Shown here: positions 1,473-7,818 of the stretch, in pieces
Layout: every line of letters starts with the position of its first letter
Position numbering within the stretch: position 1 is the stretch's first letter
NCBI GenBank assembly: GCA_902812415.1
Contig: CADDZJ010000011.1
Coordinates: 1 to 64,000, forward strand
Origin: Acidobacteriota bacterium
Lineage (GTDB): Bacteria; Acidobacteriota; Terriglobia; UBA7540
Length of the DNA stretch: 64,000 nt
Reading direction: 5' to 3'
The notes under the pieces: generated by a model
The model's database searches: none
What the model was told of the DNA's origin: nothing
The model's input: the letters and a program-made list of their open reading frames with translations, nothing else
Made by a program: the position numbers and the translations under genes

Positions 1473-2378
1473 ATGACGCAACATCCAACCATCGAACTGA
1501 AGCATCTGGATAACCTCTGGTTTCAGGTTACCGGAACGCTTTGCAATATCGCCTGCGCGCACTGCTTTAATAACAGCGGCCCTAATGTCAAAACATTCGG
1601 CTTCTTAACGATCGAGCGCGTCCGAGAGGAGCTTGAAGTCGCCGCCCGTTTGGGAGTGAAAGAAGTCGCTTTCACGGGCGGTGAACCTTTTCTTCATCCA
1701 CAATTGCTCGAGATGCTCGAACTCTCCTTGACTTATGCGCCCACCACGGTGCTTACCAACGGCACGCTCCTCAGCGATCGCGTAGCCGACCGCCTGGCGG
1801 AAATCGAACGAAACGCGCGATGTTCGCTCGAAATTCGCATCAGCCTGGATGGCTACACCGAGGAAATGAATGATGCCATTCGCGGTCCGGGCGTTTTTCG
1901 GAAGGCCCTCGCGGCCACCCGCCGGCTGAGCGAGCGCGGTCTGCTTCCCCTGATTACGATTGTCCGCACCTGGGGCGACGACGAGGAGTTTCCAACGCTG
2001 GCCGGCTTTGTGCGCGTTCTGCAGCAGGCGGGCTACTCGCGCCCCCGCATTAAAGTGCTGCCCTCGCTGCCTCTAGGCCGCGAACTCATTCGGACTCGCC
2101 AGCAGGATGAAAGCACATTGACAGAAGAGATGCTCGAGGGATTCGACCGGGACCTCTTAATGTGCTCGAACTCGCGCATTGTGACCGACCGTGGGGTATG
2201 GGTGTGCCCATTATTGGTGGAAATGCCTGATGCGCGGCGGGGAGCTACGTTGCGCGAAGCGGCTTCAGGATACGAATTGCATCACCACGCGTGCACGGCG
2301 TGTTATCACTACGGAACCATTTGCAGCAATGTGAGTGCCCAGATCGAAGGCATCGGGTTGGCCGAGCGTAAGCCATGA
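1473..2378 (+). CDS. radical SAM enzyme with SPASM/twitch-like C-terminal cysteines
   Basis: A 301-residue radical SAM protein. The cluster motif CxxxCxxC is at C24, C28 and C31, and FTGGEPF is the usual SAM-binding GGE motif. The C-terminal third has five cysteines (about 231, 245, 274, 277, 284) next to a His triplet, suggesting an auxiliary Fe-S site of SPASM or twitch type. The gene overlaps the next one by ATGA at 2375-2378, so the two products are probably made in fixed ratio. The substrate is unknown. A sulfatase-superfamily gene lies 0.96 kb downstream, which recalls anaerobic sulfatase-maturating enzymes, but this protein is shorter than those and that target lacks the Cys or Ser they oxidise. 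It may instead modify a peptide or small molecule. Confidence 0.8.
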   Translation: MTQHPTIELKHLDNLWFQVTGTLCNIACAHCFNNSGPNVKTFGFLTIERVREELEVAARLGVKEVAFTGGEPFLHPQLLEMLELSLTYAPTTVLTNGTLLSDRVADRLAEIERNARCSLEIRISLDGYTEEMNDAIRGPGVFRKALAATRRLSERGLLPLITIVRTWGDDEEFPTLAGFVRVLQQAGYSRPRIKVLPSLPLGRELIRTRQQDESTLTEEMLEGFDRDLLMCSNSRIVTDRGVWVCPLLVEMPDARRGATLREAASGYELHHHACTACYHYGTICSNVSAQIEGIGLAERKP

Positions 2379-3157
2379 ACAAGATCGCCCTCTTGGGCGG
2401 CATTTACAGTAATTATCGGGCGCTTGAGGCGGCGCTTGCCGATGCGCACGGGCGCGGAGCGGATGCGATCTACTGTCTGGGAGACCTTGGGGCTTTCGGA
2501 CCTTACCCGGATCGGGTTTATCCCCTTCTGCGCGCGGCGAATGTGCAGTGCATCCAGGGAAACTATGATAATTCCCTGGCAGAAGGCCTGGCGGATTGCC
2601 AGTGCGGTTATACCGATCCCCGTGACAATTACTTTGCTCGCCTCTCTTATTCCTATACTTTCCGCAATACTTCTGATGAAAATAAGGCTTGGCTGCGTAC
2701 GCTTCTTGGCACACGCCGCTTCACTTTAGGTAATCGCCGCGTGCTGCTCTGCCACGGCTCGCCGCGCAAAATGAATGAATTCCTCTGGGAATCCACGAGC
2801 CCGGACTGCTTTCTGGAATACCTGCTAAATTTGGCGCAGGCCGATATCGTCTGCGTGACGCATACGGGAATTAAATGGCATCGGTCGCTCTCCGGCAACC
2901 GACATTTTGTGAACGTTGGCGTGCTGGGACGGCCTGAAAACGATGGCTCCACCAATGTCTGGTATACGCTGCTTTCGGCGGATTCCGGCGCCGTTCAAGT
3001 GGAGTTTTTGCCTGTGGCCTATGATTACGAAGCCCTGGCTGCCGACATGCGCCAGGAACACCTGCCGGAGGAATTCATTGAAACCATCCTGACCGGTTGG
3101 TGGACCACCTGTCTGGAAATCCTGCCTCATAAGGAACGCGCCCGCGGCCGGTTTTAG
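2375..3157 (+). CDS. metallophosphoesterase-fold protein with degenerate metal site 1
   Basis: A 260-residue protein of the calcineurin-like (YfcE-type) fold, coupled by a 4-nt overlap to the radical SAM gene. Family motifs are in order: GGIYSN at 8-13 (normally GDIHGN), GDLGAFGPYP from 36, GNYD at 62-65, CHGSPR around H127, and THTG at 162-165 (normally GHTH). The ligands assigned in this family to site 2 (D37, N63, H127, H163) remain, while the three exclusive to site 1 are replaced (Gly9, Tyr11, Gly165). It may be a mononuclear enzyme, a binding protein or a structural partner of the radical SAM protein. The substrate is not predictable. Confidence 0.75.
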   Translation: MNKIALLGGIYSNYRALEAALADAHGRGADAIYCLGDLGAFGPYPDRVYPLLRAANVQCIQGNYDNSLAEGLADCQCGYTDPRDNYFARLSYSYTFRNTSDENKAWLRTLLGTRRFTLGNRRVLLCHGSPRKMNEFLWESTSPDCFLEYLLNLAQADIVCVTHTGIKWHRSLSGNRHFVNVGVLGRPENDGSTNVWYTLLSADSGAVQVEFLPVAYDYEALAADMRQEHLPEEFIETILTGWWTTCLEILPHKERARGRF

Positions 3158-3337: not shown

Positions 3338-4939
3338 ATGCCAAAACTGAGCTTTTCCAGAAGGAGTTTTCTGAAGACGGCGACCGTAGGCGCTGCGGCG
3401 GGCGCAAGCGGGATTTCTGCCGCCGCGCAGGAAAGCGAACCTTCGCTATGCGGCTCCGTCTGGGAACGGCCGCCGCAGCAGCAGGGAAACAACCTGAACC
3501 TGATCGTAATTGTCAGCGACACCTTCCGGCACGATAATCTCGCCTGCTACGGCCCGAAGTGGCTTGAAAAGCTTGAAACGCCCAATCTCGACCACTTCGC
3601 CTCGGAGTCGGTCATCCTGAAGGACTTCTACCCCGAAGGGATGCCCACCATCGTCATCCGCCGCACGCTCTACACCGGCCGCCGCGTGATCCCCTGCTAT
3701 TACTTTCCGCAGCCTGAATCAGTCCAGTTGCCCGGATGGCACGCGCTTTATAACGAAGATGTGACGCTGAGCGAGACGCTCAACGAAGCCGGTTATATCA
3801 CCGCGCTCACCAGCGACCTTTACCACGAAATGAAGCCGACGCGTAACTTCAACAAGGGCTTTCACACCTGGCAATGGATTCGAGGCCAGGAAGTAGACTA
3901 TTACGGCACGTCTCCGCACCAGCTTCTTGACGTGAGTGACATGGTTTCGCCTGACTATCTGGCGCGATTCCCTCATTTGCATCAGTTCCTGAGCCAGTAC
4001 AAAGCGAATCGCAATCTCTGGAAGCAGGAGGGCGAGTCGCTGGCGCAGCTTGTGGCGCAAGCGGCCATTCGCTGGCTGAATGCGAACTTTGAGCAGCGCC
4101 CGTTCTATCTGCACATTGAATTCTTCGATCCGCACGAGCCCTGGGACCCTCCGCGCCGGTTTCTCGAAAAATACATGCCCAACGCAACCGGCCCGAGCTT
4201 TATTGAGCCGCCCTACGATACTGTGCCCCTGCCGGATGAGATCAAGCAGCGGTTCCGCGCCAACTATGCCGGGGAAGCAAGTTGCGTGGATTACTGGATT
4301 GGCAATCTGTTGGATACGATCCGCCAGTTGGGGCTATTTGAGAATTCGGTCGTTGTTTTCCTGGCGGATCATGGCGCTATGCTGGGCGAGCACGGCCAGT
4401 TCGTCAAGGGCCCCGACAAGTTGCGGGGCCAGGTCACGCACATCCCGTTGCTCATCCATTTACCAGGCAACCGGCTTGCCGGGAAACAGGTTTCAGGTTT
4501 CGTCCAGATGCAGGACGTAATGCCGACGCTCCTTCATTTGCTGGACCTGAAGCCGGCAGCGCGGGTGACGGGCGCAAACTTCTGGCCGCTGGTCACGGGC
4601 GAGACGCGCGCCCTCCACGAATACGTGGTGCAGACTTATGGCTGGGTAGGGGCCGTGAGGACGCGCGAATGGAATTACAGTGAAGTCTGGAAACCTGAGG
4701 CCCGCCTGAGCAAGTTCCATACGCGTCCCGGCGCGCCGGCGGAAACTTATAAGCCGCAGCTCTATAACCTGAAAAAAGACCCACAGGAACTCACCGACGT
4801 GGCAAGCCAGTTTCCAGACGTTTGCCGGCAGATGTCGGCCAGGCTACGGGAGTATATCGCTTCAGGACAGGGAATCACTTATGGCAGCTTCAACCAGAAA
4901 CCCAGCTTAAGCCCCGGCACGGTCTATGTGAGCAGCTAA
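3338..4939 (+). CDS. Tat-exported sulfatase-superfamily hydrolase with Thr at the nucleophile position
   Basis: A 533-residue alkaline-phosphatase-superfamily protein (sulfatase fold). SRRSFLK at residues 7-13 followed by an Ala/Gly-rich stretch is a classic Tat signal, so it is likely folded and cofactor-loaded before export. Metal-site motifs are visible: D61 in IVSDTFR and ADHG in the C-terminal half. The sulfatase signature CxPSRxxLxTG aligns with TIVIRRTLYTG at 104-114, so the formylglycine precursor Cys/Ser is Thr104. Thr nucleophiles occur in phosphatase and phosphodiesterase branches of this superfamily, so a phosphorus ester is a possible substrate. The start ATG 3338 has GGAGG nine bases before it. 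Confidence 0.8.
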   Translation: MPKLSFSRRSFLKTATVGAAAGASGISAAAQESEPSLCGSVWERPPQQQGNNLNLIVIVSDTFRHDNLACYGPKWLEKLETPNLDHFASESVILKDFYPEGMPTIVIRRTLYTGRRVIPCYYFPQPESVQLPGWHALYNEDVTLSETLNEAGYITALTSDLYHEMKPTRNFNKGFHTWQWIRGQEVDYYGTSPHQLLDVSDMVSPDYLARFPHLHQFLSQYKANRNLWKQEGESLAQLVAQAAIRWLNANFEQRPFYLHIEFFDPHEPWDPPRRFLEKYMPNATGPSFIEPPYDTVPLPDEIKQRFRANYAGEASCVDYWIGNLLDTIRQLGLFENSVVVFLADHGAMLGEHGQFVKGPDKLRGQVTHIPLLIHLPGNRLAGKQVSGFVQMQDVMPTLLHLLDLKPAARVTGANFWPLVTGETRALHEYVVQTYGWVGAVRTREWNYSEVWKPEARLSKFHTRPGAPAETYKPQLYNLKKDPQELTDVASQFPDVCRQMSARLREYIASGQGITYGSFNQKPSLSPGTVYVSS

Positions 4940-5090: not shown

Positions 5091-6587
5091 ATGTCCTCTG
5101 CCATGAAGACGCTGTTCCTCAATCCTCCCAGTTTCAAAGGTTTTGACGGCGGATCAAGCGCCCGATACCCCGCCACGCGGGAAATTCCCTCTTACTGGTA
5201 TCCGGTATGGCTGAGCTATCCGGCCGGGATGCTGGAAAACAGCCGCCTGCTGGATGCCTGCCCGCATAACGTCTCGCCAGAGGAGACGGTTCAAATTGCG
5301 CGTGATTATGACTTTCTGGTGGTGTTCACTTCCACCGTCGGTTTTCAGAATGACTGCCGCCTGGCGCAGATGATCAAATCCGCCAAGCCGGACATGAAGA
5401 TCGCCTTTGTAGGGCCGCCGGTGCAGATCGAGCCGGTTAAAAGCCTGAAAGCATCGGAGGCAATTGATTTTGTCGTGCGCGGCGAGTTTGACTATCCTGT
5501 GGTGGAATTCGCGCAGGGCAAGCCGCTGGACGAGATACAGAACGTCAGTTTTCGTAAGAACGGCGACGTGGTTTCAAACCCCATGCGGCCGCAGTTGCAG
5601 ACAGAGGATTTGGACCGGCTCCCCTTTGCCAGCGATGTTTACAAGCGCGATCTCACGATTGAGAATTACAACATCCCTTATCTTCTGCATCCCTATATCT
5701 CTTTCTACAGCTCGCGGGGATGTCCAGCGCTGTGCACTTTCTGCCTCTGGCCGCAGACGCTTTCCGGCCACGCCTGGCGCGTTAGATCGGTGGATAATGT
5801 GGTGGCGGAAGTGCGCCAGGCGTTGCGCCTCTTCCCGCAGATGAAGGAGATCTTCTTCGACGACGACACGTTCAACATCCGCAAGGATCGCGTGCTCGAG
5901 CTCTGCCGCAAATTCAAACCGCTGGGCTTCCGCTGGTCGTGCACGGCGCGTGTGCATAGCGATTACGACACTTTAAAGGCCATGGCCGATGCGGGCGCGC
6001 GGCTCTTTATAGTGGGCCTTGAATCCGGCGATCCGCAGATTCTGAAGAACATCAAGAAGGGCGCCACCATTGAGATGGCCAAAGCCTTTGCCAAAAACTG
6101 CAAGAAAGTAGGCATCAAGATTCACGGCGACTTCATCATCGGATTGCCGGGCGAGACGCCGGAGACCATCCAGAAGACCATCGACTATGCCAAGGAGTTG
6201 GATGTTGAGACGATCCAGGTCTCTGTTGCCCACGCCTTCCCGGGGACGGAGTTATACGACTATTACACGCGAAACAATTACATGGTGCACAGCGCCGTGA
6301 CTGACGAAGGCGGCCATCAATTGCCGCATATCGAACTGCCGGGACTTAGCCGCGAGGAGATGATGGCGGCGGTGAACCGCTTCTACGACGAGTATTACTT
6401 CCGCCCGCGCGTGGTGTGGCGGCTGGTGAAAGACGCGCTGTGGAATGCCGACGAGCGGAAGCGGCTTTATCAGGAAGCCGTCAGCTTTCTCCGCCTTCGC
6501 GCCGAGCGGCTGCAATACGTGCGCCAGGGCGCAGGGCCGCGGCCCATGGTGAGCGTGCCGGTCAACGATACAGCTTCAGGCCAGTGA
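5091..6587 (+). CDS. hpnJ: hopanoid biosynthesis B12-binding-type radical SAM protein HpnJ
   Basis: A 498-residue protein with an N-terminal B12-binding-like Rossmann region (about 1-160) and a radical SAM core with C211, C215 and C218 (CPALCTFC). Length and sequence style match HpnJ. Genetic work in Burkholderia links HpnJ to formation of the cyclitol-ether head group of extended hopanoids. It overlaps or directly abuts hpnI, and hpnH and hpnA lie downstream, which supports the assignment. An alternative ATG at 5103 (MKTLFLNPPSF) is possible. No strong ribosome-binding site decides between them. Confidence 0.85.
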   Translation: MSSAMKTLFLNPPSFKGFDGGSSARYPATREIPSYWYPVWLSYPAGMLENSRLLDACPHNVSPEETVQIARDYDFLVVFTSTVGFQNDCRLAQMIKSAKPDMKIAFVGPPVQIEPVKSLKASEAIDFVVRGEFDYPVVEFAQGKPLDEIQNVSFRKNGDVVSNPMRPQLQTEDLDRLPFASDVYKRDLTIENYNIPYLLHPYISFYSSRGCPALCTFCLWPQTLSGHAWRVRSVDNVVAEVRQALRLFPQMKEIFFDDDTFNIRKDRVLELCRKFKPLGFRWSCTARVHSDYDTLKAMADAGARLFIVGLESGDPQILKNIKKGATIEMAKAFAKNCKKVGIKIHGDFIIGLPGETPETIQKTIDYAKELDVETIQVSVAHAFPGTELYDYYTRNNYMVHSAVTDEGGHQLPHIELPGLSREEMMAAVNRFYDEYYFRPRVVWRLVKDALWNADERKRLYQEAVSFLRLRAERLQYVRQGAGPRPMVSVPVNDTASGQ

Positions 6588-6597
6588 AGTTTTGCGG

Positions 6598-7818
6598 ATG
6601 TTTCTCCTCCATCATCTCTCATTCATCGCGGTGCTAAGCCTGCTGCGCAGGGACGAAGCGCTTTTCGCGCGCGTCCGGGAAGCCCTGCTCATTTTGCCCA
6701 TCACCGCCTGGCTCTACTATCTGGTGGCTGCGGTGTGCGCTCATCGGTTCTTCAGCCGAGAGCGGCCTGAGCCTGGAAACTTCACGCCGCCCGTCAGCAT
6801 CCTGAAACCCGTGCGGGGCGTCGATCGCGAAGCTTACGAGAATTTTGCCAGCTTCTGCCGGTTGGATTATCCGGAGTATGAGATTCTGTTCGGCGTCAGC
6901 GACGTTTCAGACCCTGTCGTTCCCGTCATTCAAAAGCTGATTCGCGACTTTCCCGACCGCTCCATCCGCCTTTTCACGGGCCTTCAGCGCCTTGGTCCGA
7001 ATGATAAAGCTTCCGTCCTGGCGCACCTTGCGCGCGAGGCCCGTTATGAGTTGATGGTGGTGAGCGATAGCGATGTGCGAATGGCGCCGGAAGGCTTGCG
7101 GGCCATCGTCGCTCCGTTCCACGATCCGCAGATCGGCGCTGTGACCTGCCTTTATCGGGGCGTGCAGGAAAATACGTGGGCGGACTCCCTGGAAGCTCTG
7201 ACGCTCAGCACCGATTTTCTGGCCAGCGTCCTGGTGGCCCGGCAATTTTCGGGAACTCGGTTTGCCCTGGGCGCTACGCTTGCGACCACCTGCCATCACT
7301 TGGCGGAGATTGGCGGTTACGAAGAGCTTGCCGATTTCCTGCTGGATGATTACGAGTTGGGCTACCGCATTGCGGAGCGGGGATATCGGGTCGAAATGCT
7401 CTCCTACGTCGTCCCGATCGTTCTGCCTTCGCAATCGCTCGCGGGCTATTGGCAGCGACAATTGCGATGGTCGGTGGGCGTGCGCAATTCGCGCCCGTGG
7501 GGGCATTTGGGGCTCTTGTTCACGCAAGGTTTGCCGCTCTCGCTGGTCGCCATGGCTGCGGCACATTCCGCGCAGGTCGCTTGGCTTTACCTTGCGGCTT
7601 ACTTGGCCAGCCGGTATTTCATGGCGTGGACCGTTGGCGTGTGGGGATTAAAGGATTCGGCGCTTCGCAAAAGATGGTGGCTGGTGCCCACGCGCGATGC
7701 AGTGGCTTTCTGCACCTGGCTTGCCAGCCTTTGCCATAACCGCGTCAGTTGGCGCGGCGACGCCTTCCAGGTGCGCAAAGGCCGCTTGTTGCCGCACGAA
7801 GCAGCATCTGGCCGCTAA
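6598..7818 (+). CDS. hpnI: hopanoid biosynthesis glycosyltransferase HpnI
   Basis: Membrane-bound GT2 enzyme resembling ceramide glucosyltransferase. After an N-terminal membrane segment come SILKPVRG, a SDSDVRM metal-binding motif, a DDYELGYR region and QRQLRW (the Q/RxxRW product-binding motif), then C-terminal hydrophobic helices. In Burkholderia HpnI adds N-acetylglucosamine to bacteriohopanetetrol before HpnK deacetylation and HpnJ action. The gene begins 11 nt after hpnJ. TTG 6592 is an alternative start two codons upstream. The usual partner hpnK (deacetylase) is not seen in the window. Confidence 0.8.
   Translation: MFLLHHLSFIAVLSLLRRDEALFARVREALLILPITAWLYYLVAAVCAHRFFSRERPEPGNFTPPVSILKPVRGVDREAYENFASFCRLDYPEYEILFGVSDVSDPVVPVIQKLIRDFPDRSIRLFTGLQRLGPNDKASVLAHLAREARYELMVVSDSDVRMAPEGLRAIVAPFHDPQIGAVTCLYRGVQENTWADSLEALTLSTDFLASVLVARQFSGTRFALGATLATTCHHLAEIGGYEELADFLLDDYELGYRIAERGYRVEMLSYVVPIVLPSQSLAGYWQRQLRWSVGVRNSRPWGHLGLLFTQGLPLSLVAMAAAHSAQVAWLYLAAYLASRYFMAWTVGVWGLKDSALRKRWWLVPTRDAVAFCTWLASLCHNRVSWRGDAFQVRKGRLLPHEAASGR

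Follow-up and report, generated by a model that had tools for sequence, protein, structure and literature searches.

What could be the role of a protein with metallophosphoesterase (MPE) fold that has lost the ligands of only one of its two metal sites and whose gene overlaps with that of a radical SAM enzyme (rSAM)? This question is raised by a gene pair located near the start of the window, i.e., the 64,000-nucleotide stretch of DNA from an Acidobacteriota bacterium that was analysed. A preliminary description of the pair had proposed a coordinated ligand loss rather than random decay, leaving a mononuclear enzyme or a binding partner that is tied to the rSAM.

The gene pair and the loss of metal site 1

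In class III MPEs (e.g., Rv0805), the bridging Asp belongs to both metal sites. Site 1 further comprises the Asp and the His of the GDxH motif and the second GHxH His, and site 2 an Asn, a His and the first GHxH His. The gene pair comprises the following features:

1473-2378, + strand: rSAM gene, coding for a radical SAM protein of 301 aa with the CxxxCxxC cysteines C24, C28 and C31 and the C-terminal cysteines C231, C245, C274, C277 and C284
1542-1565, + strand: radical SAM [4Fe-4S] motif CxxxCxxC, read CNIACAHC (sequence and alignment)
2163-2324, + strand: five-Cys C-terminal region of the rSAM, C231 to C284, invariant in the homologue alignment
2375-2378, + strand: ATGA stop/start overlap of the rSAM and MPE-like genes (sequence)
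2375-3157, + strand: MPE-like gene, 260 aa, metallophosphoesterase fold without metal site 1
2396-2413, + strand: GGIYSN replacing (G/S)DxHGN, with Gly9 (2399-2401) in the place of Asp and Tyr11 (2405-2407) in that of His
2483-2485, + strand: D37, bridging ligand, kept (alignment of relatives)
2561-2569, + strand: N63-Y64-D65, site-2 Asn kept; Tyr instead of the GNHD His is also found in the canonical sister family
2597-2605, + strand: C75-x-C77, invariant; also present in most canonical sisters
2753-2755, + strand: H127, site-2 ligand, kept (alignment of relatives)
2861-2869, + strand: H163-T-G165, site-2 His kept, site-1 His replaced by Gly
3095-3148, + strand: C-terminal signature GWWTTCLEILPxKERxRG (W242, W243, C246), confined to the rSAM-linked clade

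The replacement of the three site-1-only ligands by Gly9, Tyr11 and Gly165, the retention of D37, N63, H127 and H163, and the gene overlap had all been described before and are borne out by the sequence. In the MPE-like protein, the canonical GDxHGN reads GGIYSN and GHTH reads THTG; the full dinuclear set (DxH, GD, GN, H, GHxH) is incomplete, with the four site-2 ligands all present. L002 and L003, the two canonical MPE paralogues in this genome, have all seven ligands intact.

Both proteins have recognizable folds, and none of the NCBIfam and Pfam models names a role for either of them. The MPE-like protein matches the Pfam families Metallophos_2 (3e-9; 37.3 bits versus a cut-off of 27) and Metallophos (4e-6), and its AF2 model (pLDDT 89.8) finds its best PDB fold matches in SapH, PH1004/1NNW and 3RQZ (Foldseek). 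The rSAM matches Radical_SAM (5e-23; 82 bits versus a cut-off of 29.5), and its AF2 model (pLDDT 89.6) has SkfB, BlsE and anSME as PDB neighbours. The Pfam search returned no SPASM match for the rSAM; C24, C28, C31 and the five C-terminal cysteines are invariant in 30 aligned homologues, and SkfB and anSME are among the fold matches. The five-Cys region is a likely candidate for an auxiliary Fe-S site.

The asymmetric Ap4A hydrolase SapH/Spr1479 (PDB 3QFM/3QFN), a dinuclear enzyme with DxH and GHxH, is the best fold match of the MPE-like protein (TM 0.76, 25% identity), which, however, is devoid of the three site-1-only ligands. The archaeal proteins 1NNW and 2GJU (PH1004), identified as PDB sequence relatives (E = 5e-17), are also without site-1 ligands, but have lost site-2 ligands as well (GNYD to GKYD; no His at the THTG position). 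In Vps29 and the DNA polymerase B-subunits, the phosphoesterase fold serves as a binding partner. Vps29 appears among the fold matches; yet these are eukaryotic or archaeal proteins with other partners, and Vps29 keeps its metal ligands.

A scan of GTDB genomes yielded at least 581 confirmed relatives of the MPE-like protein, the best 80 of which were analysed; these span Planctomycetota, Acidobacteriota, Calditrichota, KSB1, Methylomirabilota, Gemmatimonadota, Zixibacteria, Verrucomicrobiota, Bacteroidota and a deltaproteobacterial/Myxococcota bin. None of the 80 deviates at G9, Y11, G165 or the four site-2 ligands, nor at Y64, D65, C75, C77, W168, W242, W243 and C246, and the three substitutions recur in each of the 17 carriers that were found in 247 Acidobacteriota genomes. 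An alignment of 44 sequences has 72 of 260 positions invariant, with the metal-site loops being twice as conserved as the remainder (51% versus 24% invariant, p = 8e-4), which argues for a pocket in use. In some MPE-like proteins of Acidobacteriota (L118, L119), the N-terminus is extended and bears a GxKLVPLExFR stretch.

Within the 247 Acidobacteriota genomes, the site-1-less carriers were recovered at E < 1e-100, and a second set at E 1e-31 to 1e-56. The 12 members of the second set that were examined are canonical (SDIHGN or GDIHGN, HTH intact); most of them have GNYD and C75xC77, but neither the WWTTC tail nor a nearby rSAM is found in any of the 12. In an MPE tree, computed after removal of the trait columns and the tail, the site-1-less form falls on one branch (support 100/99) and requires one change, while the own-genome paralogues appear as long branches. 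The tree indicates that this form arose once. As the canonical sisters already possess GNYD and C75xC77, Y64 and the CxC motif are, by this comparison, older than the site-1 loss, while the loss, the tail and the link to the rSAM belong together.

Given the invariant substitutions, their single origin, and the fact that the nearest outside relatives have all ligands and no rSAM neighbour, the ligand loss is not decay, in line with the preliminary proposal. The idea of a degenerate, non-functional phosphoesterase would fit the three missing catalytic ligands, but has next to no probability in view of the identical triple change in about 100 genomes, the 72 invariant columns and the single origin. 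A further alternative is a site 1 rebuilt from Y11, C75, C77 and C246, which would leave the protein dinuclear, perhaps with a metal or As(III) held by Cys. While the invariance of C75, C77 and C246 within the clade speaks for such a site, C75 and C77 occur in most canonical sisters with an intact site 1 and, hence, have not arisen as a replacement; we regard this as very improbable. The candidate of an As(III) trithiolate site (C75/C77/C246) gained together with arsenic is weakened by the same distribution.

Pairing of the two genes and their neighbours

The rSAM was found in all 17 Acidobacteriota carriers, in at least 16 of them adjacent to the MPE-like gene; in the 17th (G098), the pair is split across two contig ends, with the rSAM end just before the MPE. 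At the loci of the best 80 of the at least 581 relatives, the rSAM lies within the fetched DNA in 66, and the gap of same-strand pairs is ≤100 bases in 50 of 64, with near-zero intergenic gaps in many relatives. Where the genes are unlinked, the rSAM was located elsewhere in 12 of 14 genomes, and one of the remaining two (L027) ends at a contig edge; in most loci where the MPE-like gene sits elsewhere, an FAD oxidoreductase precedes the rSAM. The pairing is near-obligate, and the sequences support its conservation across about ten bacterial phyla; the unlinked cases, however, weaken a model of a tight complex. A search for the case that would speak for mere degeneration of this copy, i.e., a similar rSAM next to an MPE whose ligands are normal, gave no example; the only Acidobacteriota rSAM without a site-1-less MPE in that search is divergent (G026, E 7e-63) and lies beside ArsM. 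A recoded TGA inside related rSAMs was considered and rejected; in L098-L100, TGA is the normal C-terminal stop.

In the window, the pair is preceded by tandem AhpC/TSA peroxiredoxin genes (171-638 and 712-1242, +), each with an in-frame TGA (318-320, 913-915) at the peroxidatic position, and the source genome contains a tRNA-Sec (contig C105). The two proteins are likely selenoproteins; hence, the Sec-peroxiredoxins that had been pointed out beside the pair look real. However, a homologue is absent from all of the 80 related loci, and a functional link to the pair was discarded as incidental. Directly 3' of the pair, a TAT-signal sulfatase-family protein is encoded (3338-4936, +), which is outside the conserved cluster, followed by the hopanoid biosynthesis genes HpnJ and HpnI (5091-6584 and 6592-7815, +), both above the NCBIfam cut-offs.

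Arsenic gene context and alternation with ArsS

The main new result is the arsenic-related gene context of the pair, and an arsenic role is supported by this association. Over Acidobacteriota, Calditrichota, KSB1 and Verrucomicrobiota, the cluster genes include the arsenite methyltransferase ArsM, a thioredoxin (trx)-type arsenate reductase ArsC, a TIGR04282 “arsenosugar biosynthesis glycosyltransferase” (GT), PiT, PstS/PstC, an aquaporin and the FAD oxidoreductase. According to neighbour clustering and family searches at the loci of the best 80 of at least 581 relatives, an ArsM-like methyltransferase is present in 8 (Calditrichota, KSB1, Verrucomicrobiota), the FAD oxidoreductase in 37, the TIGR04282 GT in about a dozen, and PiT in 2. 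ArsM, rSAM, GT and a phosphate-type transporter, the gene set of an arsenosugar-type cluster, occur together in four loci (L016, L038, L118, L119), and ArsM plus GT in two (L022, L129).

In Acidobacteriota, the gene order varies, comprising GT-rSAM-MPE-ArsM-PstS-PstC (G238), ArsM-rSAM-MPE-FAD oxidoreductase (G015, G246), ArsM-FAD oxidoreductase-rSAM-MPE (G177), ArsC-GT-ABC-rSAM-MPE (G055), and a PiT-aquaporin-ArsM-FAD oxidoreductase-GT array divergent from rSAM-MPE (G059). The loci of the canonical sisters (L101-L110) gave no match to ArsM, PiT, GT or the FAD oxidoreductase. The PiT-type transporters in the clusters (L016:2980-4113, L038:4541-5716, L118:221-1450), which also adjoin ArsM-ArsS in L170, L171 and L173, probably serve arsenate/phosphate uptake.

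It is conceivable, though improbable, that the pair acts on a non-arsenic target, such as another cofactor, a phosphonate or a selenium compound, with arsenic genes being near in some lineages only. Many loci are without an arsenic gene nearby, including the source window, where none is adjacent to the pair; the source genome has an arsR-arsM-acr3-arsC operon on a separate 4-kb contig, its ArsM being of the short general type, and a search for the FAD oxidoreductase in this genome gave no match, an empty answer that is weak. Acidobacteriota close to the source genome have the pair next to an MFS transporter instead, and most planctomycete loci contain just FAD oxidoreductase-rSAM-MPE, with ArsM elsewhere; a clear long ArsM was found in 21 of the 50 pair genomes searched. 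Against this stands the linkage to ArsM in four phyla, together with ArsC, PiT, GT and aquaporin, which is hard to explain by chance, as is the way in which the pair and ArsS alternate, without overlap, in the long-ArsM genomes of Acidobacteriota (see below). ThiO-like oxidase, formyltransferase, MFS and SSF neighbours were dismissed as conserved partners, being lineage-specific.

Two radical SAM enzymes that act on arsenic serve for comparison. ArsS adenosylates arsenic on the way to arsenosugars, and ArsL transfers a 3-amino-3-carboxypropyl group to arsenic in the arsinothricin pathway (PMC12159101, PMC8552651). Like the rSAM of the pair, ArsS (TIGR04167) is a radical SAM protein encoded beside ArsM, PiT and the TIGR04282 GT, has a similar five-Cys C-terminal pattern, and occupies a mutually exclusive genome slot in Acidobacteriota. 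However, the window rSAM scores 62.4-62.9 bits against TIGR04167 (cut-off 300), lacks DUF3641 (PF12345), which is found at 1e-56 in the ArsS from L182, and is accompanied by the MPE-like protein, in many cases also by the FAD oxidoreductase. When profiles are compared, the rSAM matches ArsS (98%) in the core and in the first of the Cys pairs at the C-terminus; this match may be general radical SAM similarity, and NF049973 (Rv1681) fits the rSAM better than ArsS does. ArsL is likewise a C-As bond-forming radical SAM enzyme beside ArsM (PMC8552651), but has 428 aa with only the three cluster cysteines conserved, and no MPE partner has been described for it.

ArsS was called above the curated cut-off of TIGR04167 (300 bits) in the 247 Acidobacteriota genomes. 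It is present in 39 of these and the pair in 17, with an overlap of 0 where 2.7 would be expected (P = 0.05, shared ancestry ignored); a site-1-less MPE was found in 0 of the 39 ArsS genomes. Among the 16 genomes with a long ArsM, which span 12 families and are not phylogenetically independent, the pair is present in 8 (Fisher p = 8e-7), ArsS in 7, both in none, and one or the other in 15 (p = 6e-10), all with shared ancestry ignored; the 16th (G001) has a divergent new-type rSAM just after ArsM. The long ArsM adjoins ArsS in five genomes (G005, G131, G040, G142, G033) and lies inside the pair's cluster in another five (G177, G015, G246, G238, G059), and PiT and GT are seen in both types of cluster. 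Outside Acidobacteriota, pair and ArsS coexist in 2 of 50 pair genomes, one of which (G256) has a second long ArsM beside ArsS. From these data, the pair appears to replace ArsS in organoarsenical pathways.

Proposed role of the pair

We give an even chance to the reading that the pair is the core of an organoarsenical (arsenosugar-type) module, in which an rSAM unlike ArsS would form a C-As bond and the MPE-like protein would be its dedicated partner; reaction, metal content and partner role are inferred. ArsM would make a trivalent methylarsenical, to which the rSAM would probably add a 5'-deoxyadenosyl or other SAM-derived group under C-As bond formation. The MPE-like protein may descend from a SapH-type nucleotide-binding phosphoesterase that lost site 1, kept a remodelled one-metal pocket and gained the WWTTC tail. 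Instead of hydrolysing phosphodiesters, it would bind or present the adenosyl/arsenical substrate or product to the rSAM, with the former nucleotide/metal pocket holding the adenosyl or arsenical ligand.

The main rival, which we consider rather unlikely, is that the MPE-like protein is a mononuclear-metal enzyme for the step following the radical reaction (e.g., removal of adenine or another group from an adenosyl-arsenical) and specific to the rSAM's product. The four invariant site-2 ligands and pocket loops and the Ap4A hydrolase as nearest fold are in favour of an enzyme, and the co-occurrence of genes that are sometimes unlinked is as compatible with a pathway enzyme as with a subunit. 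On the other hand, with DxH and the second His of GHxH lost, the metal that activates the nucleophile in known class III enzymes is gone, and in ArsS genomes, which are without the MPE-like protein, a shared later step would have to be carried out by some other enzyme. Its absence from the Acidobacteriota ArsS genomes makes it more probable that the protein is tied to the reaction or product of the rSAM than to a step common to both routes. In our reading, a binding partner is favoured over a next-step enzyme.

A bolder reading, which we hold to be less likely than not, is that the phosphoesterase with one remaining metal site has turned into an obligate subunit or a carrier of the substrate in a two-component radical SAM system that forms C-As bonds, and that the pair constitutes a second, ArsS-independent arsenosugar-type route over about ten phyla. 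Known makers of C-As bonds beyond methylation are few, namely ArsS, ArsL and the bisenarsan route (PMC12159101, PMC8552651), and a search of the freely accessible literature for an rSAM-MPE pair in arsenic metabolism found no description of it, rendering the novelty provisional; the one matching paper deals with iron deficiency in Bacteroidetes and appears unrelated. If true, the proposal would add soil and marine members of the Acidobacteriota, Planctomycetota, Calditrichota and other groups to the known producers of organoarsenicals, and would be a clear-cut example of how the loss of exactly one of two metal sites can repurpose a phosphatase fold.

Divergent rSAMs are also encoded directly beside ArsM at L180:7168-8001 (32% identical to that of the window) and L112:2916-3893; the fetched DNA of neither locus revealed an MPE-like protein, and these rSAMs possibly represent a further type of C-As radical SAM enzyme.
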